From NCBI GenBank assembly GCA_916048095.2, contig OU696589.1, positions 6,578,183-6,642,182 of the forward strand: a stretch of 64,000 bases of DNA, given 5' to 3'. A program made the position numbers and the translations under genes. This document shows, piece by piece, positions 2,476 to 59,000 of the stretch (position 1 is its first letter; each line of letters opens with the position of its first letter). The notes under the pieces were generated by a model. It searched no databases and had not been told where the DNA came from. It was given only the letters and a program-made list of their open reading frames with translations. Source of the DNA: Sacculina carcini (lineage: Eukaryota; Arthropoda; Thecostraca; Sacculinidae).

Positions 2476-4150
2476 AGTGTGTGTGTGAACTGTTATCTGT
2501 GACACATACACAGCGTGTATGGTATATGAGCATGTAAGGTATTTTCACGGGTAGCATAGTGATATGAATCACAGCGTCAAATGGGGTTTCATCAGTGTAT
2601 TTATGACTAACACCGTAACACACACACACACACAATTTAGCAAAAAAAGGTCAAAATAGTCTGAAAAATATGGCATCATTTCATTCTGCGTGACTTTTTC
2701 AGTATGATTTCTATGCTTGCCAGCCTATTTTTTAGTTATGTGCATGTACTAATGTTTAGTTTTCGTTATATTTAATATGAAAAAGAGCACATTGAATACC
2801 AACAAGTATTCATCGTTAATACAACAAATTACAACAACAATATTTCTATTCTCCCAAACTCCACTCTCTTCTTCATCCAGCCAAACTTCTTAATCTCGCC
2901 TCATTGTTGATTGTCGGTTGTCATAGCAACCAGCATACAAGCGACAAATACACACACACACACAACTGAAATAAATATAACTTCGCAAACAGTTAGTAAA
3001 TACAGTATATGATAACCTAAAAGCAACGCAATCGCTATAGACAGTATTTTGCGTGTTTTCTTCACCTGGTTTTGTTGATTGTACAATATGTTCATGCGTA
3101 TATTGGAGTTGAAAGCACTACGATGTGATACCTAGTCAATTCTATAGCATGATAGCATAGTTTTGTTTATATTTGGCGACATTTCGGTGAAATATCATAA
3201 TTCTTTTGTCTCGGCGGTGCTCAGGTAACAGCCGCACGAGACAGCTCTGTCTTGACACCCGGCTTTCATTTCAGTGGCGTGTATTTTGTATGCATGGCGT
3301 GTGTGTGTGTGTGCGTATTTTTATAAGGTATCTCCATTCTTTTGCACGAATTCCTTTGAGAATTTCGACTTGGTGCATTGCCCATATTTTTCCCAGTCGC
3401 TTTTTTTCCGGCTACAAGGCTGATCATGGAATACAAAATAACATTTTCATGACGCAAATGTGGAATTTTATTTTGTGTTTTTCTGACGAAATCCTGTCAT
3501 TTCAGTTTTGATAAAACTATTCGTCTCCATACATACTGTACAAATTCCTCAGACATATCGGCGGTACGTCTTTTTGAAGATTTTGCGAAACATTTATTCT
3601 GTTTTTTTCTGTCTCACAATGTTTCGTGACAGAACAGGAATAAGCAGATGTCTGGAGAAAATATTTCATCTGTATGTCTGTCTGCTACTCTTTCTAAACT
3701 GAGACTCAAGTTAGTCACGAAATAATTGATTATGAACAATTAGTGATTAGTGAACCAGTGGTCTAGTTGATGGTGGCAATATCTCAATGACGTACGATTT
3801 GACTCCATTCTTGTCTCCGGCTCTTCATCTCGTGATTTTTACTAATTTTTGTGTTCACTTATGTAATATTTGTGTTTGACCAAAATTGCTATGTATATTG
3901 TTTGCAATTTTAGCTGTTTTTTCTAGTTGCATGTATTTTAAATTGGGTTGATGTTTAATTCAGTGGTGGAGATGACAGGATTTTCTTCACACCGTGAAAA
4001 TGTGTTTGCAACTGTTCAATGTGTTTCTATTCTGTGATCGTGTGTGAACCAAGCTGCAGTTTCTGGGCTCTGTCAGAGCCGTTTTCATTCGTTCACAACT
4101 GGCATTGCTAATTCAAGCTCGTGCGTATGCTTGTCTTGATACTTTCATGT
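1291..4150. other. Noncoding, AT-rich, with GT tracts
   Basis: GT tracts lie at 1987-2160 and 2437-2476, with three copies of a phrase containing GTCAGTATGTTAGTGCTAG near 2022-2130. No open frame has coding character or recognisable homology. The stretch is probably an intron or the 5' flank of the gene whose terminal exon is at 4602. Confidence 0.6.
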
Positions 4151-4157
4151 GTTGTCG

Positions 4158-4505
4158 CTGGTTTCCATGGAAACGTGTTGCCATGACAACGTATTGTCGT
4201 TGATTTCCACAGTCGCGTGTTGTCATGACAACGTGTTGTGTTGGAACGTATTGTCATGGAAACGTGTTGTTGATTGCCATGGTCGCGTGTCATGGAAACG
4301 TATCGTCATGACAACGTGTTGTTTTGAAAGCGTGTTGCCATGACAACGCGTTGTTTTCATAGCAGCTGGTTGTCTAAGAAACATGTCATGGCAACGTGTT
4401 GTCGTTGGTTGCCATGACAACACATTGTCGCTGATTTCCGTTGCAGCTTGTTGTCTTGGAAACTTGTTGTCATGGAAACGTATTGTTGTTGGTTGTCATG
4501 GTGGC
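4158..4505. promoter_or_regulatory. Cluster of X-box (RFX)-like inverted repeats
   Basis: About a dozen imperfect copies of the palindrome GTTGYCATGRNAAC are packed into 350 bp. Clear ones are at 4161-4174 (GTTTCCATGGAAAC), 4177-4190, 4219-4232, 4333-4346 and 4408-4421 (the last four GTTGCCATGACAAC or GTTGTCATGACAAC) and 4466-4479. The RFX X-box consensus is GTTNCC followed by 0-3 bases and RGYAAC, so several units fit it fully. The cluster may be a degenerate minisatellite whose unit happens to be an X-box. It lies about 100 bp before a terminal exon. Confidence 0.5.
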
Positions 4506-4546
4506 GTCTTAAGTGGCAAACATTGTATGAGCATTTTAGTGGTAAT

Positions 4547-11889: not shown

Positions 11890-12055
11890 TTACTTATGTA
11901 TATTGTTGACGGTAGGAGTAGTGTTGGTGGTGGCTATGGTGTTAGTGTTGTTAGTATTGTTAGTATTAGTATTGAGAAGGCGTCGTCGTTGAGACATGAG
12001 CCGAGCCCGCCTCTCTTTCTGCTCCCGTCGCCACTCCAACCACCGAGCCACCTGT

Positions 12056-14025: not shown

Positions 14026-16066
14026 AACACACATACACACACGCAGTGACACATGAACATAGGGCAACACACCTCAGGTACTTGTCTGTTGCCCTTGAGT
14101 TCTAGTTGTCGATAGTAGGCCTCGCGCAGTACCTTGATAGCCTGTACGTTGGCGTAGGGCAGCCGAGTGATCGGGTCAAAATATCGCGCCGGCAGTCTGA
14201 CATAGACACACATACACAAATAAATACAAATATACACAAATACAAATACAAATATACACACACATACATACACACATACAAATACAAATATACACATACA
14301 TACAAATACAAATATACACATACAAACATAGACATACAAATATACATATACAAATATACATACAAATACAAATATACACATACAAATATATACACATATA
14401 AATATATACAAAATTACAAATATACACATACAAATATATACACACACATACATACAAATATACACACAATACATACAGATACAAAATCACACATACAAAC
14501 ACAAATATATAGAAGCAAAACACACACACACAAAAACAGAAAAAGGCGCATACACACATGTACACGAATACACAAAAACACACTATAAATGTATTGAACA
14601 CTAACATTATGTGCTCTACATAGAATGTTTTTCAAGCGCCCCCACACACACACATACATACACACACACAATGATCAATAGTAATATAACATATATCTCA
14701 TACAGAGAAAAATACACTTAAAACAGACTGATATACGAACAATACACAAACCTACATAAAATCACATAGCCGTACATACGTACAGGCACATGAATGTAAC
14801 CCAAGTGGAAATTAATGTAACCCTAGTGGAGATGAATGTAACTCTAGTGGAAATTAATGTATAGTGGAAATTAATGTAACTAGTGGAAATTAATGTAACT
14901 AGTGGAAATTAATGCATAGTGGAAATTAATGTATAGTGGAAATTAATGTATAGTGGAAATTAATGTAACTAGTGGAAATTAATGTAACTAGTGGAAATTA
15001 ATGTAACTAGTGGAAATTAATGTAACTAGTGGAAATTAATGTATAGTGGAAATTAATGTATAGTGGAAATTAATGTATAGTGGAAATTAATGTATAGTGG
15101 AAATTAATGTATAGTGGAAATTAATGTATAGTGGAAATTAATGTATAGTGGAAATTAATGTAACTAGTGGAAATTAATGTATAGTGGAAATTAATGTATA
15201 GTGGAAATTAATGTATAGTGGAAATTAATGTATAGTGGAAATTAATGTATAGTGGAAATTAATGTATAGTGGAAATTAATGTATAGTGGAAATTAATGTA
15301 TAGTGGAAATTAATGTATAGTGGAAATTAATGTATAGTGGAAATTAATGTAACTAGTGGAAATTAATGTATAGTGGAAATTAATGTATAGTGGAAATTAA
15401 TGTATAGTGGAAATTAATGTATAGTGGAAATTAATGTAACTAGTGGAAATTAATGTATAGTGGAAATTAATGTATAGTGGAAATTAATGTATAGTGGAAA
15501 TTAATGTATAGTGGAAATTAATGTATAGTGGAAATTAATGTATAGTGGAAATTAATGTATAGTGGAAATTAATGTATAGTGGAAATTAATGTAACTCTAG
15601 TGTAAATTAATGTATAGTGGAAATTAATGTATAGTGGAAATTAATGTATAGTGGAAATTAATGTACAGTGGAAATTAATGTACAGTGGAAATTAATGTAT
15701 AGTGGAAATTAATGTATAGTGGAAATTAATGTATAGTGGAAATTAATGTAACTCTGCTGGACATTAATGTTAAACTCGTTTCCACGAGTTAAACGTCAGT
15801 ATAAATGAGTAAAGCACTAGTGAAAGTGTGCGTGTGTATGTATGTGTGTGTGATGTGTGTGTATGTTAGTGTGTGTGTGTGCGTCAGTGTGTATGATGTG
15901 TCAGTGTGTATGTGTGATGTGACAGTGTGTCAGTGTGAATATGGGTGTTAGTGTGTGTCCGTGTATGTGTGTTTGATGTGTGTGTATGTGTGTTTGATGT
16001 GTGTGTGTGTGTGTGCGTGTGCGTGTGTGTGTGTATGTGTGTTTGATGTGTGTATATGTGTGTTTG

Positions 16067-16115
<49 letters not shown>

Positions 16116-19100
16116 TGTATGTGTGATGTGTCAGTGTGAATATGTGTGTCAGTGTCTGTGTGTGTTTGTATGATGTGTGGGGTGAAACACCAATATACCT
16201 GGTGACTGGACAAATACTGCGCGCTTTGACTGCGGGAGGCGACTGCTTCAACTGTGGCAACAAATCAGCCAAAACAGCCGGCTCCGAAAACGAGACAAAC
16301 GTACGACTGCATCGTGACTGAGCTGTGACGTCATCAGTAGTAGTCAGCTCCTTCTGATGTTGTTGACATGACGTCATTGACGATGATGATGACGTCACAG
16401 CGGTAGGTCGGTCGGAAAATTCAATCTGCATCGTAGAAAAACAGACAGACAACAGTACAGTACAGTGAGTGAATCTATGAGGCATGGATAATAAGTCAAT
16501 GGATGAGTGCGTCAAACAGTGGAATAGTTCGCTGGTTGGCTCAATGAATAGTCATTGAGCCAATCAACCTATCAGAGAATCCCAGCAAGGGCGACATCTC
16601 AGTGTAGCGCGAGCGACGGCGATAAGATAGAAAGATAAGGAGGAAAGTGAGCTAGATAAGGAGGAAGATGAACTAGATAAGGAGGAAGGTGAACTGGACA
16701 AGGAGGAAGGTGAGCTAGATAAGGAGGAAATTCACCTTGATAAGGAGGAAGGTGAGCTGGATAAGGAGGAAGGTGAGCTAGATAAGGAGGAAATTCACCT
16801 TGATAAGGAGGAACGTCACCTTGATAAGGAGGAACGTCACCTTGATAAGGAGGAAGGTGAACTGGACAAGGAGGAAAGTCACCTTGATAAGGTGGAAGGT
16901 GAACTGGACAAGGAGGAAATTCACCTTGATAAGGAGGAAATTCACCTTGATAAGGAGGAAAGTCACCTTGATAAGGAGGAAATTCACCTTGATAAGGAGG
17001 AAATTCACCTTGATAAGGAGGAAATTCACCTTGATAAGGGGGAAATTCACCTTGATAAGGAGGAAATTCACCTTGATAAGGAGGAAATTCACCTTGATAA
17101 GGAGGAAATTCACCTTGATAAGGAGGAAATTCACCTTGATAAGGAGGAAATTCACCTTGATAAGGAGGAAAGTCACCTTGATAAGGAGGAAAGTCACCTT
17201 GATAAGGAGGAAAGTCACCTTGATAAGGAGGAAAGTCACCTTGATAAGGAGGAAAGTCACCTTGATAAGGAGGAAATTCACCTTGATAAGGAGGAAAGTC
17301 ACCTTGATAAGGAGGAAATTCACCTTGATAAGGAGGAAATTCACCTTGATAAGGAGGAAATTCACCTTGATAAGGAGGAAATTCACCTTGATAAGGAGGA
17401 AAGTCACCTTGATAAGGAGGAAATTCACCTTGATAAGGAGGAAAGTCACCTTGATAAGGAGGAAAGTCACCTTGATAAGGAGGAAAGTCACCTTGATAAG
17501 GAGGAAAGTCACCTTGATAAGGAGGAAATTCACCTTGATAAGGAGGAAATTCACCTTGATAAGGAGGAAATTCACCTTGATAAGGAGGAAATTCACCTTG
17601 ATAAGGAGGAAAGTCACCTTGATAAGGAGGAAAGTCACCTTGATAAGGAGGAAATTCACCTTGATAAGGAGGAAATTCACCTTGATAAGGAGGAAATTCA
17701 CCTTGATAAGGAGGAAAGTCACCTTGATAAGGAGGAAAGTCACCTTGATAAGGAGGAAAGTCACCTTGATAAGGAGGAAATTCACCTTGATAAGGAGGAA
17801 ATTCACCTTGATAAGGAGGAAATTCACCTTGATAAGGAGGAAATTCACCTTGATAAGGAGGAAACTCACCTTGATAAGGAGGAAACTCACCTTGATAAGG
17901 AGGAAATTCACCTTGATAAGGAGGAAAGTCACCTTGATAAGGAGGAAATTCACCTTGATAAGGAGGAAAGTCACCTAGATAAGGAGGAAATTCACCTTGA
18001 TAAGGAGGAAACTCACCTTGATAAGGAGGAAAGTCACCTTGATAAGGAGGAAATTCACCTTGATAAGGAGGAAATTCACCTTGATAAGGAGGAAATTCAC
18101 CTTGATAAGGAGGAAATTCACCTTGATAAGGAGGAAATTCACCTTGATAAGGAGGAAGGTGAGCTTGATAAGGTGGAAATTCACCTTGATAAGGAGGAAA
18201 GTCACCTTGATAAGGAGGAAATTCACCTTGATAAGGAGGAAATTCACCTTGATAAGGAGGAAATTCACCTTGATAAGGAGGAAATTCACCTTGATAAGGA
18301 GGAAAGTCACCTTGATAAGGAGGAAATTCACCTTGATAAGGAGGAAAGTCACCTTGATAAGGAGGAAATTCACCTTGATAAGGAGGAAAGTCACCTTGAT
18401 AAGGAGGAAATTCACCTTGATAAGGAGGAAATTCACCTTGATAAGGAGGAAATTCACCTTGATAAGGAGGAAATTCACCTTGATAAGGAGGAAAGTCACC
18501 TTGATAAGGAGGAAATTCACCTTGATAAGGAGGAAAGTCACCTTGATAAGGAGGAAAGTCACCTTGATAAGGAGGAAAGTCACCTTGATAAGGAGGAAAG
18601 TCACCTTGATAAGGAGGAAATTCACCTTGATAAGGAGGAAATTCACCTTGATAAGGAGGAAATTCACCTTGATAAGGAGGAAATTCACCTTGATAAGGAG
18701 GAAAGTCACCTTGATAAGGAGGAAAGTCACCTTGATAAGGAGGAAATTCACCTTGATAAGGAGGAAATTCACCTTGATAAGGAGGAAATTCACCTTGATA
18801 AGGAGGAAAGTCACCTTGATAAGGAGGAAAGTCACCTTGATAAGGAGGAAAGTCACCTTGATAAGGAGGAAATTCACCTTGATAAGGAGGAAATTCACCT
18901 TGATAAGGAGGAAATTCACCTTGATAAGGAGGAAATTCACCTTGATAAGGAGGAAACTCACCTTGATAAGGAGGAAACTCACCTTGATAAGGAGGAAATT
19001 CACCTTGATAAGGAGGAAAGTCACCTTGATAAGGAGGAAATTCACCTTGATAAGGAGGAAAGTCACCTAGATAAGGAGGAAATTCACCTTGATAAGGAGG

Positions 19101-22100
19101 AAACTCACCTTGATAAGGAGGAAAGTCACCTTGATAAGGAGGAAATTCACCTTGATAAGGAGGAAATTCACCTTGATAAGGAGGAAATTCACCTTGATAA
19201 GGAGGAAATTCACCTTGATAAGGAGGAAATTCACCTTGATAAGGAGGAAGGTGAGCTTGATAAGGTGGAAATTCACCTTGATAAGGAGGAAAGTCACCTT
19301 GATAAGGAGGAAATTCACCTTGATAAGGAGGAAATTCACCTTGATAAGGAGGAAACTCACCTTGATAAGGAGGAAAGTCACCTTGATAAGGAGGAAATTC
19401 ACCTTGATAAGTAGGAAATTCACCTTGATAAGGAGGAAGGTGAGCTAGATAAGGAGGAAATTCACCTTGATGTCGTCTAGCTGTAAGTCCATTGCCGCCG
19501 ATGCTGAACATGCAGAAGCCGTTGTTGTTGTAGCGTTGGATTTGCGTGGATTTGCGGTGGCGGTGGCGGTGGCGTGTGGTGGTTGTGGGCACTTGTGAAC
19601 CACTGAATGATAGCGGATCATAGGGCCGGTGCAGGCGTGTTTGGTTGGTCGTGCCTTGCGCTTCTCCGTCTCCATCAACAAGTACTTCTCTGCACCGACA
19701 CACACACACACACATAAGAAACATAAACACAAACATAAGAAACACACACACACACATAAGAAACACAAACAAACAGACACACACACAATAATCACAAACA
19801 CACAGACACACAAACATAAGAAACACAAACACACAGACAGACACACAAACATAAGAAACAAAAACACATAAAGACAGATAGAAATACACACAGAAAGAGA
19901 GCGAGAGAGAGAGAGAAATGGAGAAATACACACAGAAAGACAGAGAGAGAAACGGAGAGAAGCACAGACAAAAAGATAAACAGGACAAACAGAAAGAAAG
20001 AGAGACAGAGAGACGCCGGCACGCGATCGTGCTCACACACCCAGACTGTTGAGATTCTCTTGTTCGGTGATTTTCGCCTCGGCCAGGCGTTCTTCCTGCG
20101 TCATAGAGCAGCGTGTGGTGGCCTCGTCGGCGGCCCGCTGTCTGCGCTGCCTACGGCGACGATTCAGTCGCTCGTGCAGTTCCAACTGCCGCCGCTGTGT
20201 CTCGGCAGACTTGGCGAGCGTCGAGCGCCGCCGACCGGCCGCCACACTCGCTAACACACAAACACAGATAGATAGATAAATAGATGATTTATTGACCACA
20301 GTGCACAAAGTACAACTTAGAACACTTACATACATACACACACACATAAGAATCACAAACACACACAGACACACATAACAAACACACACACACACACACA
20401 CATAACAAACACACACACACACACACATAAGAAACACAAACACACACACACACACACAAGAAACACAAACACACACACAAGAATCACAAACACACAGACA
20501 CACAAACATAAAGAGCATACATACTCAAACGTACTGCAGTCCATACACACATACACTGCTGAGAGACACTCACTCATACGTTGATCCATACATATAAATT
20601 CACACACAAACACATTAAATCCCATTTGATTTCATTTATTGACCGTTTGTACCGCGGGTTTTTTTCAGTGCCGCAAAAGCGCATTCATAAGCAATCGGTA
20701 CGGTAAACAATTAAACATGAAATTAGAAACCAACAAAACATGACACCCACACATACAAACACACAAGATCACCGTATGTTGTGGTTAATGACCACACAAA
20801 AACCTGGCAAAATGCGATTTGCACCTTAAACCCCGATTATCATCATTATGAACTGATATACAAACACACAAACACAAACACACAGACAGACACACAAACA
20901 CACAGGCAGACACAGACACGCACACACACACACACAAACACACACTGACACACAAACACACATGTAATATATGAATGTACACATTGTAATATATTTGTTT
21001 GTGTCGAAAAAACTACACACTGATACGGACACACACACACACACACACAGGGATAAAGCTGGATATTGACAAGAAGACAGCTTGACAGCTCGAGCTTAGC
21101 TCATTTCCTGTAGCAACAAATATGTGAGTACACACACACACATACACACACAGGCAGACTAACCTATAGCGAGATTCTTGGCGTTTCGCCGACGATGTTT
21201 GAGTTTGACGATGGCCGAAGATGAGGCGGCCGAGGAGCTGTCAACACCAGTCGAGCCCGCCGTCGTCTCCTCCTTGTTCTTCTTCTTGACCAGCGCCGGC
21301 TCCTGAACACAAACCAACCACCACAACGTGCACACACACACAATCCAGTGTGTCTGTGTGTTTATCTGTATATGTGTGTATGTTTACGTGAGCATGTGTG
21401 TGTGTGTGCATGTTTGTGTGTGTGTGTATGTGTGTTGTTGTCGAGTTTTGTTGATTTCAAATATCATGTTTCATTGCTTACCGTACTCTGCTTATAAACG
21501 CGCTTTCGCAACATTGAAAGGGGCGGTACAAACGCTCAATAAATTCAATCAAATGAAATGTGTGTGTGTGTGTGTGTGTGTGTAAGTGTGTGTCGTGAGG
21601 ACTGGTCACCTTGTAAGCCTTGGTGAACACCCCGCGCACGAGTCGACGCTGATGTTTGCGCGAGTCTTCATCGTCCTGTCCTTCGACGTCTGATCTCACT
21701 TCGTCAGTCTCGTCAATGTCAAAGTCCGAATCAACCACATCGTCCTCTTCTTTCTCTGACCTGATCCCAACCAAACCAGCCCACACACGAACACACAAAC
21801 ATGCGTAAATAAAAATTCTCCCCGATAGATATCTATTTGGAAAAAGTAATTTGTTTAGTTTGAAAGGGCAAATCTGATTTATATTAACATCAAGCGTATG
21901 ATAATGTGTTCTACATATCACATGTTCAATAACAAGTAGAAAGTATATACTGTAACGAAATATGAAAAACCAAAACTGTATTGAAAGACAGCCGCGCGTG
22001 GGCATGTCTATCCCACGCACGCCTACAGAGCGACCAGCGAACAATTGCGACTCCTACACGATACATTCATTTCGTTTCATTTTATTGCGACACTCATCCA

Positions 22101-22690
22101 CTACGTGGATTTTAGAAGCATCTTACAACATAGGTAGTCATTATAGGTATACACAATAAAAGCATAGTCATACGTACCACGGTGTTAGAATACAGGTTAT
22201 TTCAAGTAGTAGGAACATGGTTAAAACGGTGGTCAAGTAAATCTGAGGCTCAAGTCTGGTAAAATAAAGCTGAGGCATACACGGTAAAGTTAAGATGATA
22301 GTTAAAATGCAGAAAAAAGTAATATAAAAATACATTCATACACCGTGCATACGCGAACACACACAGGTCCAGTTCAGACACTCGCATACACTTGGCACAC
22401 ACAATCGTAGACAGTCTCACACAAACACAGGCACACTAACAAGTTCACGCACTCAGACACAATCTCTCACACACTCTCTCTCTCTCTCTCTCACCATACG
22501 CAATCACACAACATATACAGTAGGAAGTCCTACGAGATATCAAAAATCACCTGTATGCGTCATCATTCTCATCGTCGCTGAATCCTCCGTATGTTGTTTT
22601 ATAGAACTCATCCTCTTCCTGTTCGTCGATCAACTTGCTCATGCGATTGCCAGCATTGGCGCGACGCTCGCGCGATTTGGCCAGCCACAT
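11890..22690 (-). CDS. VPS72: VPS72 / YL1 nuclear protein (H2A.Z-handling remodeller subunit), complete, 8 coding exons
   Basis: Joined minus-strand exons 22690-22551, 21760-21610, 21302-21164, 20250-20041, 19689-19466, 16425-16199, 14196-14073 and 12057-11890 give about 460 aa with every splice phase matching. Known family role: YL1 binds H2A.Z-H2B and is a subunit of the SRCAP and TIP60 complexes in the nucleus. Landmarks in order match human VPS72: MWLA start, EEDEFYKTTYGGFS, VDSDFDIDETDE, FTKAYK, a basic middle, EERLAEAKITEQENLNSL, CTGPMIRYHS, CSRTFVSFSE, then the YL1 C-terminal domain ICPVTRLPARYFDPITRLPYA and KVLREAYY. It is longer than human (364 aa) because of low-complexity segments. 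Introns are unusually rich in tandem repeats. An acceptor just before the ATG implies a noncoding 5' exon. It is head-to-head with BOD1L1. Confidence 0.92.
12062..13578. repeat. Composite (CA)n / AATAAAACAATAAC array in VPS72 intron 7
   Basis: About 1.5 kb of CA tracts regularly interrupted by AATAAAACAATAAC (on plus), giving a variable unit of roughly 18-30 bp with several dozen copies and longer-period duplications (for example near 12930-13100 and 13200-13330). On the VPS72 sense strand it reads as TG tracts with TTATTGTTTTATT. Very long V/C/L open frames on minus are produced by the repeat. Confidence 0.95.
13579..13740. other. Unique island inside the composite array
   Basis: About 160 bp of complex sequence (CAGGGGAACAATCAGC... 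to ...AAATATATTTGTTTGTGTC) interrupts the repeat. Its last 20 bases resemble sequence at 20985-21004. No splice-bounded exon could be fitted into the VPS72 frame. Confidence 0.5.
13741..14035. repeat. Second block of the composite (CA)n / AATAAAACAATAAC array
   Basis: Same unit as at 12062-13578, about ten copies, ending just before VPS72 exon 7. Confidence 0.95.
14073..14196 (-). CDS. VPS72: VPS72 coding exon 7 (YL1 C-terminal domain)
   Basis: Acceptor GTCAG at 14197 completes an Arg codon split from exon 6. The exon encodes LPARYFDPITRLPYANVQAI and VLREAYYRQLELKGNRQ, the hallmark of the YL1_C domain (human PALYRDPVTDIPYA). Donor GAG then GTGTGT at 14072, in phase 0. Confidence 0.93.
14208..14600. 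repeat. (ACAAATAC)n-type compound repeat
   Basis: Low-complexity stretch built from ACAAATA, TACACA and CATACA words, without a fixed period. It occupies the start of VPS72 intron 6 as read toward exon 7. Confidence 0.85.
14792..15775. repeat. 17/19-bp minisatellite in VPS72 intron 6
   Basis: About 57 tandem copies of TAGTGGAAATTAATGTA, with a minority of 19-bp units that carry an extra AC (TAACTAGTGGAAATTAATG). Rare variants (GTACAG at 15663-15690, ACTCTAG at both ends) mark edges. Unit order is clustered: runs of the 19-bp type at 14950-15030, otherwise scattered. No open frame or splice motif is linked to it. Confidence 0.95.
15826..16175. repeat. (GT)n array near VPS72 exon 6
   Basis: GT tracts with GATGTG and CAGTGTG interruptions. 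One of only a few GT-on-plus (CA-sense) arrays inside VPS72. Confidence 0.9.
16199..16425 (-). CDS. VPS72: VPS72 coding exon 6
   Basis: Acceptor GATGCAG at 16426 and donor CAG then GTATAT at 16198. The exon begins IEFSDRP, has a Ser/Thr linker, then CSRTFVSFSE and ARSICPVT, aligning with human CSRTFITFSD and REVCPVT. It enters in phase 0 and leaves with two bases of an Arg codon. Confidence 0.92.
16630..19465. repeat. 21-bp minisatellite, about 135 copies, repeating the exon 5 donor junction
   Basis: Plus-strand unit AAATTCACCTTGATAAGGAGG. Read in the VPS72 direction each unit is GTGAATTTCCTCCTTATCAAG, so each junction of two units reads ATCAAG then GTGAAT, identical to the real end of exon 5 and its donor. 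Variants at donor positions give GTGACT, GTGAGT, GTGAGC, GTGAAC and GTGACG. A divergent class (AGGTGAGCTAGATAAGG on plus) sits at both array edges and internally near 18158 and 19250. The length is divisible by 3, so several frames are open on both strands (one minus frame spells a PPYQGEF heptad for about 1,000 residues). The VPS72 frame itself hits TAG after the first unit. Confidence 0.95.
19466..19689 (-). CDS. VPS72: VPS72 coding exon 5
   Basis: The acceptor is a (TG)8 tract followed by TCGGTGCAG. The exon encodes KYLLMETEKRK and CTGPMIRYHSVV, matching human CPGPIITYHSV, then a His/Ala/Thr-rich low-complexity tail ending LQLDDIK. Donor ATCAAG then GTGAAT at 19465 leads straight into the 21-bp minisatellite. 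Phase 0 at the 3' end fits exon 6. Confidence 0.9.
19690..20035. repeat. (CA)n and (GA)n low-complexity intron
   Basis: CA tracts interspersed with ATAAGAAACA, then GAGA-rich sequence at 19895-20010. The 350-bp intron 4 of VPS72 consists almost entirely of this. Confidence 0.85.
20041..20250 (-). CDS. VPS72: VPS72 coding exon 4
   Basis: Acceptor GTGTTAG at 20251, donor CTGG then GTGTGT at 20040 (the better-looking GTGAGC four bases on breaks the frame). The exon encodes a very basic Arg-rich helix and MTQEERLAEAKITEQENL, matching human LTQEELLREAKITEELNL. Split Glu codon to exon 5. Confidence 0.92.
20255..20560. repeat. (CA)n with CATAAGAA interruptions
   Basis: Compound microsatellite upstream of VPS72 exon 4 (in transcript sense a TG-rich tract). 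Confidence 0.85.
20561..21163. other. VPS72 intron 3, remainder
   Basis: Contains a CGCGGG...AAAGCGC foldback-like piece near 20650, CA tracts at 20862-20960 and 21026-21050, and no coding signal. Confidence 0.5.
21164..21302 (-). CDS. VPS72: VPS72 coding exon 3
   Basis: Acceptor TGTTCAG and donor ATAG then GTTAGT. The exon encodes EPALVKKKNKEETT, a Ser/Ala stretch and KLKHRRRNAKNLA. This is the basic histone-binding side of the N-terminal region. Conservation with human is in composition, not in residues; phases join exons 2 and 4 exactly. Confidence 0.85.
21330..21600. repeat. GT tracts and a small foldback in VPS72 intron 2
   Basis: GT tracts at 21340-21437 and 21557-21592 flank a segment with AAACGCGCTTTCGC and GCGGTACAAACGC. 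Confidence 0.7.
21610..21760 (-). CDS. VPS72: VPS72 coding exon 2
   Basis: Acceptor GGGATCAG and donor AAG then GTGACC. The exon encodes the acidic box DVVDSDFDIDETDEVRSD (human EVDSDFDIDEGDEPSSD), a basic patch and VFTKAYK. The acidic segment is the H2A.Z-H2B contact region in the family. Confidence 0.93.
21761..22550. other. VPS72 intron 1
   Basis: AT-rich. Holds a short palindrome (GCGCGTGGGCATGTCTATCCCACGC near 21991-22015) related to the perfect one at 53139-53174, and CT/CA tracts at 22320-22495. No gene. Confidence 0.5.
22551..22690 (-). CDS. VPS72: VPS72 coding exon 1
   Basis: ATG follows directly on acceptor CTGTCAG. The exon encodes MWLAKSRERR, AGNRMSKL and QEEDEFYKTTYGGFSDDE, matching human AGNRLSGLLEAEEEDEFYQTTYGGF. 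Donor ACAG then GTGATT. An unseen 5' UTR exon must lie further right. Confidence 0.92.
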
Positions 22691-24079: not shown

Positions 24080-27000
24080 GTGCGTGACAGTTCTCAACCC
24101 TCTCTTCCTCTCCTGTGATTCACTGACTCTTCTATATTACTATTTTGCACTGTTGTTTGCGCACGTTAAAGGTTAAAAGCCTCGAGTGACAGCTGCTACA
24201 CGGGAAGAAGCCGAAGCTTATGAACACACACATGTGTGTCCCGTGCAGCTCGCTGCCACCACAGAACCGACCCTCTCCACGCTATGACGCCACAAGGACG
24301 GAAGACGTATTAGAGAGGGCCACCTCCCCAGAATGCATGACACAACACATGACTGATATCTGGTACCATCATTTACTGCTGGGTGGACAGGGACTGTTGG
24401 ATTATAGAATTCGCCCAATGAAATTCTGCTCCGCCGGGATTTGAACCACGGTCCTTTCGCTTGTGAGGCGGGTGTGCTACCACTACACCACGGAGTCCAC
24501 AAAGTGTGTGTTGTTCTTATTGAGATATGATAGGCGTTCATGGCAGCCGGTTAAATTCGATATTCTGAATCTTTCCAATTAAATGTATTAATTGTCAATA
24601 AAAGGTAGGCAATTAAGCTAAACTAGGTTTGCAGGAATTCTACACAAGCTGAAACTTTCACAAAACAACAACCGCTTCTCCCATATCGCCACAGTAAGCC
24701 ACACTTTCAAGTCACAAAACACATCATCACACACATAATAATCCTGAATCACAAAAACAGTCTCAATGCTCGTGAATACACTCTGTGTACACTTCTCTCG
24801 TTATAATATTAATTAATATATGCGCTGTTGCCTTTAACAGCTTACAGCTTATGTTATTTCGTCTGGAGCTTTCTTGTTAGTATTTCTTATTTGTTATGCT
24901 TTCTTGTTAGTAGTTCTTATTTATTATGCAAACTATGTTGATTCAATACGTTTTCAATTCTGGGCTTGTTTACGCATGCATTGTGCTAGTTATGTTTAAT
25001 GAACTTCCTCTTGAAAATCCATCTTCTCTCTCTCTTACAGGTATTTTTGTACATATCTTCTCGGTGTATCTTCTGTTGAATAATTATTATTATATTGTGT
25101 GAATAACTGTTTGGTTTATTGATCTGTGGTTATTTTCAGCTGTTTTTTTTCTATAGTATATCGCTGCTCATATCTTATCGTTTATGTGATATTGTTTTGT
25201 TAAATCTACATTGTTTGATTGTCTGTTTCCTGCATCTATGTCAATTTGAGCGCTATACCAAATACACGTGTTGTTGTTGTTGTCATGTACTCACGTGGTC
25301 ACGTGATCACGTGATTCTGCCAACAGCCAGCCTATCAGAACCTGCACGCGCGCGTCGGTCGTTTTGTGCGCGTGTTTCTCGGACAGCAGAAATGGTCGCC
25401 GAGTTTGAACCGTAATCAGCTGAGAGAGCGCATGGGACGTCAACTGCTCGTGTGAGTGTGCTCTGGGATCCTCCGTTTTTTATATATGTCTCTGACGGTT
25501 TATTAAAAAGTCAAACACACACACACACACACAGGAATGTTGGTTATTCTTGGATGTTTCTTATTGAATCATATTTATTGTTATTTATTACTTATTTATT
25601 AATATTTATTCTTATTTATTGATGGTTGTTATTTACTGAATCACATATTTATTGTTGATTGTTATTATTTATTGAGGAACGTGGGCGGAGTGACATTATG
25701 GAATGTTATCGGATGATGGTTTATTATTTATTGTTATTTATTTATTATTTTCTTTCCAACTCTCTTTCTAGAATTTTTGCTTTTCGAACTCTCTTTCTCT
25801 CTGAATCTTTTGGGTGCATCCGGTACATGGGGCCACCGCAGGGTGGTAATAGTGCTTGCACTCTTCCCCCATGATACTGGAATTGTGTGTAATTAATAAT
25901 AACAATAATAATAAAAGTTAAATGCTCAAGTGGCAGCTGCTACACGGGAAGAAGTCGAAGCTTATAAAAACACAGGTGTGTCCCGTGCAGCTCGCTGTCA
26001 CCGCAGAACCGACCCTCTCCACGCTATGGCGCCACAAGTACGGAAGACGTATTAGAGAGGGCCACCTCCCCAGAATACATGACACAACACATGACTGATA
26101 TCTGGTACCATCATTTACTGCTGGGTGGACAGGGGCTGTTGTATTATAGAATTAGCCAAATAAATTCTTCTCCGCCGGGTTCCGAATGTGGTTATGCGAG
26201 TATGATATTGTTTGTGTTTCTTTTTGTATGTGGATTTATACGGAGACCACACGACAGATGCATACTCCAATTGCGGTTTTAATGTTTGTCTTCTCACCGA
26301 GGTTCCTCTTCCCCGCCTTCTAGTTGTCATAACTTTCTTTGAAGTTGTTTGTATTGTGTTTTGGTTTGTGATATCGTTGATGCTTTTGTTTGGAAAGCTA
26401 TATTTCTCTACTTATATCTCTTTTAATCTGATTCTAAATAAGTTGTTCTGTTATTCCCTCGTATATACAGGGTGGCGCCGGTAAATGAAGACAATATGCG
26501 CTCCACACAAAACTTTTATTTTTTGACAAAAGTCAGTACATTGGATGAAAGGTTTGAACTGGGGTAGCTGATGGCGACCTGTCGATCACACTTCACTCGA
26601 TGAATCCCCCTCCGCAGCGATGACGGCCTCGATTCGTGGCCTGAACCGGGCGCAGTTCTTGGTCAGCATGACCTTGTTCATCTTGACCATCACCTGCTTG
26701 ATGGCTGACTTCAGAGAGTCGAGAGTGTTGTGTGGGCGCTTGTTGGTGTCCCTCTCGACTACGCCCCACAGGTAGTAGACGAGCGGGTTCAAGTCCGGGG
26801 AGTTTGGCGGCCAGAACTCGGGCGTGATGTAGCTGTGCAGGTTGGCGCTCATCCACTCCTGCGTCGCCTTGGCCTTGTGGGCAGGGGCCGAGTCCTGCTG
26901 GAAGACATACGGCCTTCCCTCGGCCACTCCGTCGATCCAGGGCTTCACGACTCACGCAGAACCTTCACATACTCTTCGGCGTTCACCCTAAGTCCTTTCT

Positions 27001-30000
27001 CGAAGAAGTGCGGAGGCATGACGTCTCCCTGGTTGGAGACGACGCTGAAAACCATGAAGGTGGCTGGGAACTTTGTGTGCATGACGAGGGGTATATCCTC
27101 GGGGTCCTGACACAACCACCGGTCGTTCCTCCCGTTCACCTTTTGATCTTGGTCGAAACTTTTCTCGTCGGAAAAGAACCAAAGCATTTTGGGTTCCTCG
27201 GGATGCTTGATTTCACACAGCAACTTTTTGCTTTTTCGTAGCGGTTTTCCTTGGTTTGTTGTGTCATAAACTGACCCCGCCTCATCACACATGAGCTGTA
27301 GCGTTAATCTTCGTGGATGCAACGTCACACTGTCTTGTGATGCACCTGCAGCTCCCGAGCGATGGCTCGGATTGACTTGCTCGGGTCATCGCCGACGATG
27401 TTCTGGACTTTGGCGATGAAATCATCGTCTCTGATGGCATCAGATCGTCGGGAATGCTTCTTCCGCTTTGCCACAGACTGGACGTTGCCCCCAGACTCAT
27501 CCAAGCTTCGCTTGACTTTGTATACGAAGCTACTTTCGACCTTGAGGAAGGTGGCGACCTCCGGCGCCTCGTTGACGGCGTGAAGCGCCACAATGACAGC
27601 GTGCCTTTTCATTTCTTCTGTTATCATCTTTAGCTGCAACCTTCCCTCTTGCTATGGCCCACAACTACTATAAAGCCTTGAACATATATACAAAAAATTA
27701 TTGCTCTGCACAAAATAGTTTACTCGCAATACAGGTTTGAAATTTGTGGTTATTTACCGGCGCCACCCTGTATATAAATGTTGCCGATTTTAATTAATTT
27801 TCTTGTTCAATTTGTTATTTTCCGGCTGGTTATTTTAATATCATAATTATGTCCGCCCTTTTTTCGTTCTTTGTTCCAATCTTGTGCTCAATTTTTGCTT
27901 TTTCCAGCCTTTCTGGACTGCATTTTGTAAAATAATTTCATACAATTTTTCAACGTGTATCCTGTGTGTGTGTATGTGCGTATGTGTGAGAGAGTGTAGT
28001 TCTCCATTTCTGGACATCGGAGTGGAGCGTATTGTAGACCAGGTGGTACAGCGCAGTGCTTGCAGTGGTCACACACAACGAGTGTACGATCTCGTGCACG
28101 AGGTGTTATTTACACCTCCAGGACAACCCCGTCCTCCACCTCCTCCTCCGCCATCGTCATCATCAGGTGAGCTGTCTGTCTGTGTGTCTCTCGATTGGCT
28201 GTGTGTGTGTGTGGGGGGGGGGGGGGTGGTTTTGAGCAGTAATGATGTACCGGTCCGATAGTCCTTCTACCTTTGGTCGGATATTATATGTATTATTTGC
28301 CATGGAGTTCTGTTCCAGTTATCTATATGATTAGCTGGTTTTTTTTCACGTTTTTTTCCTGTAGTTTTGTCCTTTCTTCGATATTTTTCCAATTCATCAA
28401 TTGCAATTTCTTTCAATTTATCTCGTGTTCTGTAGCTTTCGCATCCTTCCATCTATGTTTCTCTTTCCTATTTAATTGGCAATTAATTATGCTTAATTGA
28501 TATGTCCGATGGATGCCATTTTCCTTGTTTTCTCGCGTTTGTTGTATGTTAATATTTATTTCTCCTTTTGACTTCACATCTAACACATCTTTCACTTATC
28601 ATTTCTCCAGTATCTGATAAACTTATTATAAACCTGTCATGTTTTGTGTTATCTTCAAGCGCTTTTTTTGTTATAAGTTTTGTTAATTTGTTTTGTTCTT
28701 GTTCCGAATTCTAATTGTGTGTATATTCTGTTGTTGTGCATGTGTGTTTGTGATATGCGCTCTATTAAATATATGATTGATGGATAGAAGGTCGCTATAG
28801 ATCATCCTAGCTTATCTCGCGTGATTCTTCCTTATACCTTCACAAATATCGTTATTTTTCGCTGTTCGAAAGGTTATTCGTATGTCGCATAGCTTCACCC
28901 AAAACTTGTTCCAGTTTCATTCTATTATTAATATGAATTTCTGTGTTTTTCAGCGAAATCGCTGAATTTCATTTAGACTCTTGAAATTTCACTTACTGTA
29001 TTGTTATGAGCTTATGTGAGCTTATGCGTATATGTAGCTGTTTTGCGAGAAAAACACCCGAATGGTAGCTATGTATCGGTAAAGTAATCATAAATCTCTT
29101 TCACATAGTTCCAGTCCAGAATGCAATTTTAGGAGGGGCTGAATTATTTTATGCGAATATGCCTATATATCAATAATTTCTACAAACATATATTTGTGAG
29201 AACCACAAGGGACACAATATAAAGAAACTCGTTTATGTATCTTTCCTTCACGTTTGCTAGATGCGTTCATTGTTTGTTTGTATTTGTTGATGGGTTTTTT
29301 CCATTAAGTTTGTTGGGTTTTGCTGACAGATTCGATGGTGAACCACACATTCTTGCCACCACCAATGTCCTTCGATAACTCACTGCAGACCTACCGACAC
29401 ACAGACTCTGAGCTCAACGGTAGCGGAACTACCTCCCCCCCTGTTCGTACTGGACTCAATGATACACCGAAGAATTTTTACAACAATCAACCAGTTACGG
29501 ACGACAGTGACAGCCGGACAGACAAACAGACAGACAGTGCCGTGAATCAGTCTGCGCCAGCGATGTTCACTCAGTGGTACCAGCAGTTCCAGATGTTCGA
29601 TTCAACGTCCGCACCCGCTCAGCAGAAGGTCACCGAACCGGCGGCTCAAAAACACCCAGCGGCTCACGAGGAATCGGCTGACGAAGACGCGGAGGTGTTA
29701 CAAGAAGATGGAGAAGTACTGGAGACTTCTGATGTTAAAATGTGTTGTGTAGCCGACATGATGGATCAGGACAACAGTGATGTACGCTTGGATGCCGACC
29801 AGCGGCTCGTGTTGGACAATAACGACGCAGTGATTGAGGACGGTGAGATTGTGGACAGTGAGAGTGAGGAGGCGCCCGACAGTCCCAATGTCATGTGGCA
29901 GATGAGTCCTCTGTCGGAGGCAGGCAGTGACCGGGCCGATGATCTGATGGAGCAAGCGGAAGAACTGCTCGAACAACAGCAGCGTCTGCAACAAACTGAG

Positions 30001-35759: not shown

Positions 35760-36165
35760 GTCACACACACACACATGCTGGCAGTCGATCGGCAGGTGTG
35801 GTTGTTGGTGCGCGTGCTGTAGTAGTGCTGTTCACCTGTAAGTGTAAGTGTAAGCGCCTCAGTCAGTGTGTGTGTGTGTTGTGGTTATAAGTGTGTAGTG
35901 TTAGTGTGTGATTTGTGTGTGTGTGTGTGTCCAGTATATCGTCTCGTCTGGCTAAATGCCTGATATAGTCGAATTGGAGACCAACTCTGCTCGCATGGTC
36001 AAGGTTTGTGTGTATGTTTGTGTGTGTCAGTGTGTCCGTGTCAGTGTGTCCGTGTCAGTGTGTGTGTGTCAGTGTGTCCGTGTCAGTGTGTCCGTGTCAG
36101 TGTGTGTGTGTATGTTTGTGTGTGTATGTTTGTGTGTGTCAGTGTCAGTGTGTGTCAGTGTGTGT

Positions 36166-36214
<49 letters not shown>

Positions 36215-36275
36215 AGTGTGTCAGTGTGTCCGTGTCAGTGTGTGTTCTCACCGAGTTGACTCCGCAGAAATGAGA
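35354..36275. repeat. Series of CA and GT arrays
   Basis: CA at 35356-35385 and 35621-35640; GT at 35415-35445, 35717-35757, 35865-35935 and 36003-36245. The last includes CCGTGTCAGTGTGT units with period about 12. A short Cys-rich open stretch between arrays (35652-35710) is bounded by GTCGCAG, but no frame assignment is secure. Confidence 0.8.
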
Positions 36276-49386: not shown

Positions 49387-49675
49387 GGACTCCGTGGTGT
49401 AGTGGTTAGCACACCCACCTCACGAGCGGAAGGTCCGTGGTTCGAATCCCGGCGGAGGAGAATTTCTTTTGGACGAATTCTATAATCCAACAGCCCCTGT
49501 CCACCCAGCAGTAAATGATGGTACCAGATATCAGTCATGTGTTGTGTCATGTATTCTGGGGAGGTGGTCCTCTCTAATACGTCTTTCGTCCTTGTGGCGT
49601 CATAGCGTGGAGAGGGTCGGTTCTGCGGTGGCAGCGAGCTGCACGGGGCACACTTGTCACCTGAGGCATTTAACG
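49387..49675 (+). mobile_element. tRNA-Val-derived SINE, internally shortened
   Basis: Full tRNA-like head with GTGGTTAGCACACC and B box GGTTCGAATC. It lacks about 45 bp before the tail (from CACACTTGT directly to CACCTGAGGC). Confidence 0.85.
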
Positions 49676-51012: not shown

Positions 51013-51353
51013 GGACTCCGTGGTGCAGTTGTTAGCACACCCGCCTCACAAGCGGGAGGTCCGTGGTTCGAAACCCGGCGGAGCAGAATTTAATTGGGCG
51101 AATTCTAAAATCCCACAGCCCCTGTCCACCCAGCAGAAAATTATGGTACCAGATATCAGTCATGAGTTGTGTCATGCATTCTGGGGAGGTGGCCCTCTCT
51201 AATACGTCTTACGTCCTTGTGGCGTCATAGCGTGGAGAGGGTCGGTTCTGCGGTGGCAGCGAGCTGCACGGGGCACGCCTGTGTGTTCATAAGCTTCGGC
51301 TTCTTCCCGTGTAGCAGCTGCCACTTAGGCATTTAACCTTTTAACCTTTAACC
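51013..51353 (+). mobile_element. tRNA-Val-derived SINE, longest copy
   Basis: About 341 bp. The head folds as tRNA-Val(CAC): CCCGC / CTCACAA / GCGGG anticodon arm, B box GGTTCGAAAC, then the shared body (CCAGCAG, GATATCAGTCATG, GGCGTCATAGCGTGGAGAGG) and a TTTAACCTTTTAACC tail. Confidence 0.88.
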
Positions 51354-56000: not shown

Positions 56001-59000
56001 CACACGGCACGGACTGCGTGGATAATGGCGTCACAATGATGGGCGCAAGTGACCTGAAGCTGATCAACAAGTCCTACAGCACGTCTTCTTCCGAGATTCG
56101 AATGCTGGGCAAAGACTTCCACAAACAAGAAACATCCAATAATCACGAGCGAATGATGCAGCTGAGCGACGGAGACAAAACCTACAGAGAGTCCACTTTC
56201 AAGCTGGACCGAATGGCAAAACTGGAGGGCAACGGACTACTAGCAAAGAAGAAAGTCTGCAGTGAGCAGGTATGCTGTCTCATCAATTTTCGCTGTTGTG
56301 GCCGTTCATACAACCATATCACACTTCTCTAACTGAACTTAGAGCATTCAGTAGTCGAACATTCGGTGTTTTGTGGTTGTGTCAATCCTTGAAAATTCAG
56401 TGAACGGCTTTGTACATAGTGAATACAACGTGGTCAAACATATGCATAGTGAGTAGAACAGATTGTTGAGCGGAACAATTTAACGTTGTCCGGACAATAC
56501 TTCGAGATATGATGATACATTACTTCTAGAATATTGTTTGATCCCGATATCCAGAAGTAAAAGGGTATTTGTATATGTACTTGTATATGTATGCCAAATG
56601 GCGTTCCAGAGACGGCAGAATGTGCGGTGTGGCGACATGAGTCGCGATACGGCGTCGCAGCGCACGTGTACCGACGCCAGCTTCAGCAGCGACCAGATGA
56701 GGGCGAGGCGCGTGGCCATGTTGCAATCGAACATGTCGTTGACCAGGGACGCGGGAACGGTGGTGGCATCGGGCAGCGAGAACCGCTCGATGAGTGTATC
56801 ACACTTGGCGTTCAACCAGCACAGAGCCGGACATCCAACGGTCAGTCGTAGCCCCATATACAACCCGTTGTTTCCCAAATCTTTTTGTTGGACTCTGTGG
56901 TCTAGTGGTAGCTCACCCGCCTCACAAGCGGGAGTTCCGTGGTTCGAAACCCGGCGGAGGAGAATTTCATTGGGTGAATTATATAATCCAACAGTCCCTG
57001 TCCACCCAGCAGTAAATGATGGTACCAGATATCAGTCATGTGTTGTGTCATGCATTCTGGGCAGGTGGCCCTCTCTAATACGTCTTCCGTCCTTGTTGAT
57101 CCATAGCGTGGAGAGGGTCGGTTCTGCGGTGACAGCGAGCTCCACGGGACACACCTGTGTGTGTTCATAAGCTTCGGCTTCTTCCCGTGTAGCAGCTGTT
57201 ACTTGATACCTTTAACCTTTAACACATACACTTAACTTATTAACTTGGGGTGCTAAGCAGGCTTGACAGCAACGTGTCAAAGCTGTGATGATAAGCTAAA
57301 GAGAGTAGATGAAACATAATCGCTGGGTTTTACGATTGTTATACATTTGCACTGTCAATCATTGAATACGGCAATTATTGAATGTCTTTCATTATGAACA
57401 TTTCATAAATCCCCCATCTTGGTACATGGATCATATACTATGCAATCACATGTGACCAATCTCGAACCGTGAGTTTCTTCAATCTTGCTGAATTGCCCCT
57501 TTCAGAACACTGAGACTGTGACTAGCCCGGCAGTTCAGTCGGCAATGGAAGAATTGGGACGTATCGAGAAGACCACCAACGCACTGGACGTCAACCAAGC
57601 ATTGATCCGCTGTGGCAACCATTTGTCATCGCTGTTGGTATCGTTAAACCAGCCCGTGACGACGCCGACCGGCTCGACAGAAAGACAGCTGAGTGTGGCA
57701 AGCTGCAGTGATTCAACGACCTATGACCAGCTGCAGCAGCCGATGGACAAAGCCGATATGTTCAACCAAATGGACACGGTGATGCAGAGAGCGTGGTCGG
57801 TGCCGGCCCACGGTCGTCAACTGGGAGTGTCACTTAGCAACACCATCCGACAGGCGGGCGGGCTGGATACACTCATCAGCTCTACTGATGAAGACTCGCA
57901 CGAGCTGAAGCGACGCAAGGCGCGCGTGCTCAGCAACTGCTTGACCACCGAGAACCGACAGTACGTGGTCGAGCGAGGTTTGGTCGGCCGCGTCGTGCAG
58001 ACCGCCTGCCTCACGTGCTGTCACCAACTGGACAATGAAGACGCACGTGCAGGCGCCGGCATCCTCAAGTCGCTGTTCAAGCACAGTGAAGGCACGTGTA
58101 GTACTGTGGTGCGCTACGGAGGGTTGGACGCCGTGCTGGAGCAGTGCAAGAAGCGTGACGTACCGACACTGCGTCAGTGTGCCATGGCACTGGCCAACCT
58201 GTCTCTGTACGGCGGACCGGAGAATCAGCAGACCATGTTGCAGCGTCGTGTTCCCAACTGGCTGTTTCCGCTGGCATTTCACAGTGACGATGTGATCCGC
58301 TACTACGCGTGTCTAGCCATCGCCACGATGGTCGCCAACAAGGAGATCGAGGCGGCCGTGCTACGTTCAGGCACTCTCGAGTTGATCGGTCCGTTTTTGT
58401 CCAAGTTGAACCCGGCCGAGTTTGCACAGAAGGCACTGCCTGTGTCGGCCGGCGGCCAGTCCGAGTCGTGGCTGCGTCGTCTCGTGCCAGTGCTGCTGTC
58501 ACACCGCGAGGAAGCGCGCAATCTGGCCGCCTTCCACTTCTCCATGGAAGCCAGTCTCAAGGTGCAGCAGCGTGCCAGCAACGCGACCGACAATGGTAGC
58601 GGTAACGAAGTCACCGGCACTGGTCACAGCAGTGACGCCGGGGCACTATTCTACAAAATCGGTGCCATCGAGCCACTGATCCACGTGGCCCGACTACCGT
58701 GTGCCGTGGCCGCTCGGTTTGCTCGCAACGCCTTGAGCTACCTCGACATCGAGACTCCTCACACGCTGAGTCAACAAGTTCCGCTGTGGTCGACTACTGA
58801 CGTGGCCAATTGGCTGCACCAGGTGAGCTTTACTTCAAGTCTTGAGACATAATATTTAGCCACACTTGGAGCTATCTCCTGCTGGAAATCAGCTCTTTTT
58901 ACATGTGTCTATCCCCACACGACCTCTCTGAACACATTCTTGTGAACATGTTCCACTGCACATAGACAAACTCATTGAACAAGGAAAATCAAGGCCAGCG

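Follow-up and report, generated by a model that had tools for sequence, protein, structure and literature searches.

The fifth intron of the Sacculina carcini VPS72 gene is filled for the most part by a minisatellite whose outermost unit includes the splice donor of exon 5. We analyzed this array within a window of 64,000 nucleotides (assembly GCA_916048095.2, contig OU696589.1, positions 6,578,183 to 6,642,182 of the forward strand). All coordinates given below are window positions, VPS72 lies on the minus strand, and genome-wide searches covered 264 Mb in 43 contigs. The array exceeds chance by its copy number and exact period. Judging from the sequence, we consider it likely that this is a donor-seeded minisatellite in which the outermost donor is used, the inner copies are rarely used decoys, and the whole is a tolerated by-product of mutation. 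A 21-bp segment straddling the exon 5 donor (six exonic and 15 intronic bases) would have been tandemly duplicated at the DNA level, and the copies would have extended into the intron, with the functional donor remaining in the outermost unit. The array would persist under selective tolerance and would not be a dedicated device.

The identity of the gene and the position of the junction were examined at the protein level. The protein joined from seven VPS72 exons matches the Pfam families YL1 (7.6e-33) and YL1_C (6e-13), as well as PDB chain 8qr1_S, annotated as "Vacuolar protein sorting-associated protein 72 homolog" (2.3e-47). When the donor at 19466/19465 is joined to the acceptor at 16426/16425, the VPS72 frame stays open in phase 0 and the protein reads ...LDDIK-IEFSD.... 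The closest of the 120 orthologues listed are P0001 (54%), P0002 (48%) and P0003 from Pollicipes pollicipes (49%), and the stretch across the exon 5/6 junction is unbroken in all three, with FDDIKIEFADD in P0001 and RLDDIQIEFSE in P0002 and P0003. No clear counterpart of the DDIK-IEF stretch was found in the other 11 of the 14 aligned orthologues, and therefore protein-level support for the junction comes from the three closest orthologues. These comparisons support the predicted donor and acceptor, and they agree with a preliminary description of this DNA, in which exon 5 ended before GTGAAT and was joined to 16425.

Tandem Repeats Finder reported a 21-bp unit in 135.1 copies from 16634 to 19471, with 94% matches, 0% indels and a score of 4885. 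Read in the sense register, the array consists of exactly 135 head-to-tail 21-bp units from 19471 to 16637, with no indel and no unit of deviating length, in keeping with the initial estimate of about 135. It begins 6 nt inside exon 5 and accounts for 2829 of the 3040 nt of intron 5 (93%). The intron had been described as consisting of the array, which is true of it except for 211 nt of other sequence next to the acceptor. A sense AG/GT donor is present in 124 of the 135 units: 75 carry GTGAAT (including unit 1), 40 GTGACT, seven GTGAGT and two GTGACG. The remaining units (2, 11, 63, 123, 125, 129, 130 and 132-135) have lost a donor or never had one. Thus, the array is a series of tandem donor-bearing units for 124 of its 135 copies, and the original statement that every unit recreates the junction fails for the other 11. 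The accompanying statement that all variants remain donor-like was incorrect, because GTGAGC (as AGGTGAGC, n = 6) and GTGAAC (as AGGTGAAC, n = 3) occur on the antisense strand only and are absent from the sense strand. By eye, the donor-less units resemble the main unit type with some 10 bp inverted, and nine of the 11 show a donor-like AGGTGAGC or AGGTGAAC in antisense.

The array lies at the exon-intron boundary, and its outermost unit holds the donor that the orthologous proteins back. Unit 1 matches the unit consensus at 21 of 21 positions, six of them exonic, and the 21 nt directly upstream match at only 7 of 21; the earlier proposal that the real donor is the outermost copy is supported. 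The six exonic bases encode I-K, and the isoleucine, together with the flanking DD and IEF, is common to the three closest orthologues. Because this isoleucine has been kept, the six exonic bases appear to be older than the array. A 30-mer unit probe allowing up to three mismatches gave 122 matches in the whole genome and 122 in the window alone. No copy of the unit was found in other genes by this genome-wide probe, and the array does not have the distribution of a dispersed, intron-breeding repeat. Together, these results suggest that the exon 5 boundary probably seeded the array, which grew out of it, and they favor the origin suggested in the preliminary description. The array also shows signs of later growth: a variant string of 48 units (1008 bp) recurs without any difference at a shift of 52 units, and one duplication has therefore added about 1.1 kb, either in recent growth of the array or in the assembly. 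In this one assembly, the internal 52-unit duplication hints at copy-number polymorphism. Coordinates of the gene model, the array and its parts are collected in Table 1.

Table 1. Features of VPS72 and its intron 5 array (window positions; 5' to 3' along the gene, with array parts at the end).
Feature	Position	Strand	Description
VPS72 coding exon 1	22551..22690	-	MSKL at 22642, the start used in searches; upstream ATG at 22690 gives MWLAKSRERRANAGNRMSKL, like P0001
VPS72 coding exon 2	21610..21760	-	One of the seven joined exons
VPS72 coding exon 3	21164..21302	-	One of the seven joined exons
VPS72 coding exon 4	20041..20250	-	One of the seven joined exons
VPS72 coding exon 5	19466..19689	-	224 nt; ends GACATCAAG, then GTGAAT; unit 1 begins with its last 6 nt
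VPS72 intron 5	16426..19465	-	3040 nt, of which 2829 nt are array
Non-array part of VPS72 intron 5	16426..16636	-	211 nt adjoining the acceptor TTTTTCTACGATGCAG/ATTGAA
VPS72 coding exon 6	16199..16425	-	Starts ATTGAATTTTCC, I-E-F
VPS72 coding exon 7	14072..14196	-	One of the seven joined exons
VPS72 last (eighth) exon	11890..12051	-	VARWLEWRREQKERRA..., stop TAA; placed by eye from likeness to P0001
Minisatellite	16637..19471	-	135 x 21 bp; sense consensus ATCAAGGTGAATTTCCTCCTT, that is ATCAAG/GTGAATTTCCTCCTT
Unit 1	19451..19471	-	Holds the real donor AAG/GTGAAT at 19466/19465; 6 exonic bases
Unit 2	19430..19450	-	ATCTAGCTCACC...; no donor; in-frame TAG; TCTAGCT pairs with exon AGCTAGA (predicted fold)
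Unit 6	19346..19366	-	First inner unit with a strong donor, AAG/GTGAGT
First copy of 48-unit stretch, units 7-54	18338..19345	-	Coordinates derived from unit numbers
Second copy of 48-unit stretch, units 59-106	17246..18253	-	Coordinates derived from unit numbers

Another large minisatellite, with 52 copies of a 17-bp unit (96% matches) at 14845-15750, takes up part of the VPS72 intron that follows. It touches no exon, and a donor-like AGGT is absent from both strands of its unit.

We compared the real donor with its copies and with the other donors of the gene. The predicted U1 pairing of the real donor is -6.9 kcal/mol, within the range of -6.6 to -8.2 kcal/mol for the six VPS72 donors scored in register; the exon 7 donor falls outside this range at -5.8 kcal/mol, having been scored one base out of register. 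The donor score of 4.7 for the real donor is the highest of the six, and the 74 other GTGAAT units share its core. The junction that matches the closest orthologues' protein uses the outermost donor, which would also be expected to dominate in RNA. The inner copies are probably used rarely, because exon definition should favor the site that bounds the 224-nt exon, and because the real donor equals or exceeds most copies in strength and the repeat RNA is expected to pair with itself. In the VPS72 frame, the TAG of unit 2 is reached at the ninth codon, the ATC of unit 1 being the first (IKVNFLLI-stop). Because of this stop, use of any inner donor would yield a truncated protein without YL1_C, as the preliminary description had anticipated, and nonsense-mediated decay would presumably eliminate transcripts that leak to an inner donor. 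In local folds covering the first 34 units, the real donor was predicted to be 0.53 unpaired, compared to a mean of 0.27-0.30 for the inner donors. By this measure the real donor ranked first of the 34 units in six of seven span settings and second in the other, and exon 5 was predicted to pair through its AGCTAGA with the TCTAGCT of unit 2.

Several observations weigh against a donor-seeded array of rarely used decoys. Donor-less units lie near both array ends, and the donor-less unit could be the older state. The seven inner GTGAGT units, at -10.7 kcal/mol and a donor score of 8.1, exceed the real donor and the other scored VPS72 donors, and leakage may therefore be substantial. The fold evidence is modest: the sense boundary segment has a z-score of -0.79, its stability being equaled or surpassed by 46 of 200 shuffles, and the sense interior reaches -1.99 (6 of 200 shuffles). 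Folding is stronger on the antisense strand (z-score -3.60, none of 200 shuffles as stable). When the units were shuffled, 68 of 400 arrays equaled or surpassed the folding of the real one, and 109 of 400 did so when the donor part was held fixed. RNA structure as a special device was rejected, the folding being ordinary by comparison with the 400 arrays of shuffled units.

The strong inner donors bring up the question of function. In a splice rheostat, the inner donors, chiefly the seven GTGAGT units, would be used at a sizeable rate that depends on array length, and VPS72 output would be set by unproductive splicing. The array offers 123 inner donors, of which seven are stronger than the real one; the unit 2 stop truncates every inner-donor transcript before YL1_C; the recent 52-unit duplication suggests that the length changes; and downstream repeat units serve as donors in human IFI6, according to a passage in PMC4526556. 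At donor position +5, however, A (75 units), C (40) and G (7) are the common states, with G the least frequent of them, and therefore the array does not have the look of selection for strong inner donors. We regard the rheostat as unlikely. In a related proposal, every further inner unit would raise the odds that splicing is unproductive and runs into the unit 2 stop, so that array length, changing by unequal exchange, would tune the supply of this H2A.Z chaperone and alleles would differ in output; such a leak valve is doubtful on present evidence. Each unit can also be read as a pyrimidine tract and an AG joined directly to a GT donor, which would permit stepwise removal of the intron through zero-length exons. 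All 134 unit junctions have 9-10 pyrimidines in the 10 positions before ATC or GTC, followed by AG (123 AAG, 7 TAG and 4 CAG), and in our reading of the sequence the TGAC of GTGACT units, 17 nt before the AG, resembles a branch site. The recursive splice-site arrangement of an acceptor followed directly by a donor is thus present as a motif, mostly with AAG. However, AAG makes a poor acceptor, CAG or TAG stands at all seven acceptors located in VPS72, and the units are too short for spliceosomes to assemble on neighboring copies, all of which makes a recursive-splicing ladder improbable. The preliminary description had also raised the possibility of a U1 small nuclear ribonucleoprotein sponge, for which the 124 U1-complementary sites in one stretch might speak. 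Most of these sites are weak, and those in the first 34 units are predicted to be partly paired; moreover, the copies of one pre-mRNA are tiny in number compared to cellular U1. A sponge confined to a single intron of a single gene, with sites that are for the most part weak, is implausible, and we give the idea almost no weight. Overall, a regulatory role of the array appears unlikely, and the array is probably tolerated rather than useful.

Other explanations concern how the array arose. The whole intron could have been born by duplication of an exon segment around ATCAAG-(A)TTGAATTTTCC, in which case the units would resemble the spliced exon junction. The start of exon 6 (ATTGAATTTTCC) and the start of the intron (GTGAATTTCC) share a 7-nt run when offset by 1 (p = 0.0055 in a shuffling test and 0.003 relative to window positions), compared to 2-3 nt in the other five introns, and a review (PMC3443670) counts tandem genomic duplication among the accepted ways in which introns are gained. 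This likeness was noticed before it was tested, however, and given a GTGA donor, 6 of 382 window 20-mers (0.016) do as well. Furthermore, neither the 211 nt that flank the array nor the acceptor is related to it, and the sequences before the donor and the acceptor differ. We therefore treat the shared run as a lead, not a finding, and consider birth of the whole intron in this way to be rather unlikely. Coincidence, in which an ordinary intronic minisatellite happens to reach the exon, draws on the richness of the window in tandem repeats and on the existence of other donor-bearing arrays, one of them without a recognizable exon alongside. Because the array fills 93% of the intron, an array end near the donor would not in itself be very surprising. 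Nevertheless, the match extends 6 nt into the exon without a mismatch and takes in the real donor, and we find mere coincidence hard to credit. The plus strand, finally, has an open frame of 927 aa (16631-19414) with heptads of the DKEEIHL type and two weak Pfam matches below the curated cut-offs. A 21-bp period alone keeps frames open, and long minus-strand frames are open too; the plus-strand frame has no methionine, and the open VPS72 frame lies on the opposite strand. A coding repeat on the plus strand is thus extremely improbable. Duplication of the exon 5 boundary, with the outermost donor kept in use, is the account that we prefer.

We also asked whether anchoring of arrays at donors is general in this genome. 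A pattern of three AGGTRAGT sites spaced 5-35 nt apart gave 538 matches (306 + 232) genome-wide, compared to 94 (30 + 64) for the reversed pattern. We counted nine arrays among the matches listed; a single 14-bp unit type accounts for six, and three of the nine were inspected (L021, L022 and L023). At L021, a 14-bp unit follows the 3' end of what appears, from its reading frames alone, to be a non-LTR (long terminal repeat) retrotransposon. At L023 (contig 2, 128415 to at least 130547), most listed units of a 25-bp array carry the near-perfect donor AGGTGAGT, and no recognizable exon lies alongside. Because the inspected arrays include an apparent retrotransposon tail and an array without an exon, the excess of the donor pattern is no evidence for a splicing function. 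At L022 (about 1478-2420), which came from the same donor-pattern search, a 15-bp array begins about 9-12 nt after GAG/GTGAAT of an exon that we read as putatively MFS-like, and is followed by an 11-bp array in the same intron. At L061, a 28-bp array of 26 copies (3785-4527) begins 12 nt after the plausible donor TTTT/GTAAGT. The window itself, at 35956-36245, has what may be a first exon (ATG...GTCAAG), with GTT and a 14-bp array rich in TG (the 36007 array) immediately behind it. These three arrays, at L022, L061 and window 36007, begin 3-12 nt after a plausible donor.

The edges of 26 arrays in the window and at L061-L065 (L062 and L064 being partly N) were then compared with 6000 random positions. 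Four of the 52 edges combined a donor with coding-like upstream sequence (p from 0.029 to 0.054 each), compared to about three expected by chance; they include the VPS72 edge (p = 0.054) and both edges of the 36007 array. The coding score used here is weak, giving 1.2-6.9 for the VPS72 donors. No excess of donor-anchored arrays was found in this small survey of 26 arrays and 52 edges with its weak score, and we rejected donor anchoring as a general feature of the genome. The VPS72 array is best taken as what appears to be an individual event. Elsewhere in the window, four tRNA-model matches of 29-48 bits (24427-24497 on the minus strand; 49390-49457, 51014-51085 and 56893-56959 on the plus strand) stand beside recurring similar frames and suggest a tRNA-derived family of short interspersed elements, and we read broken mariner-like transposase frames at 26589-27651 on the minus strand.

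VPS72 is a conserved gene in which 124 nearly identical donors follow a single exon, and it offers a natural experiment on donor choice by the spliceosome, and equally one on the birth of a minisatellite from a splice site. If the inner donors are used at all, array length would be a heritable dial on gene output.

Links between minisatellites and splicing have been described in other systems. In C. elegans, the CeRep25B minisatellite is over-represented near alternatively spliced regions (PMC4039745). It resembles the VPS72 array as an intronic minisatellite linked to splicing, and the abstract of that source does not mention re-creation of a donor by the CeRep25B unit. The VPS72 array also resembles cases of intron gain in that a segment containing an AGGT like that of a splice site is tandemly repeated at an intron boundary. 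Intron gain or growth by tandem genomic duplication was reportedly described by Zhuo et al. in 2007. According to a review (PMC3443670), tandem duplication of AGGT segments is the only route to intron gain that has been demonstrated in vivo. In VPS72, by contrast, only the donor side is clearly derived from the array and the acceptor is unrelated, and intron gain is a candidate explanation.

The closest parallel is human IFI6 (6-16, G1P3), whose minisatellite, the subject of work by Turri et al. in 1995, is said to have a 12-bp unit in about 26 copies and to lie at the exon-intron boundary. This minisatellite supplies multiple donors, and two downstream repeat units act as donors to give three mRNA species, according to a passage that cites Turri et al. 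1995 (PMC4526556). Because a minisatellite offering multiple splice donors is common to both genes, the VPS72 array is not new in kind, contrary to the view in the preliminary description that no such system had been described. It differs from the IFI6 minisatellite in its 21-bp unit and 135 copies, in its gene and phylum, in the stop of its second unit and in the pyrimidine tract that every unit carries. The VPS72 array is therefore a new, large donor minisatellite that is unusual for its copy number and for its donor-less, stop-bearing second unit.

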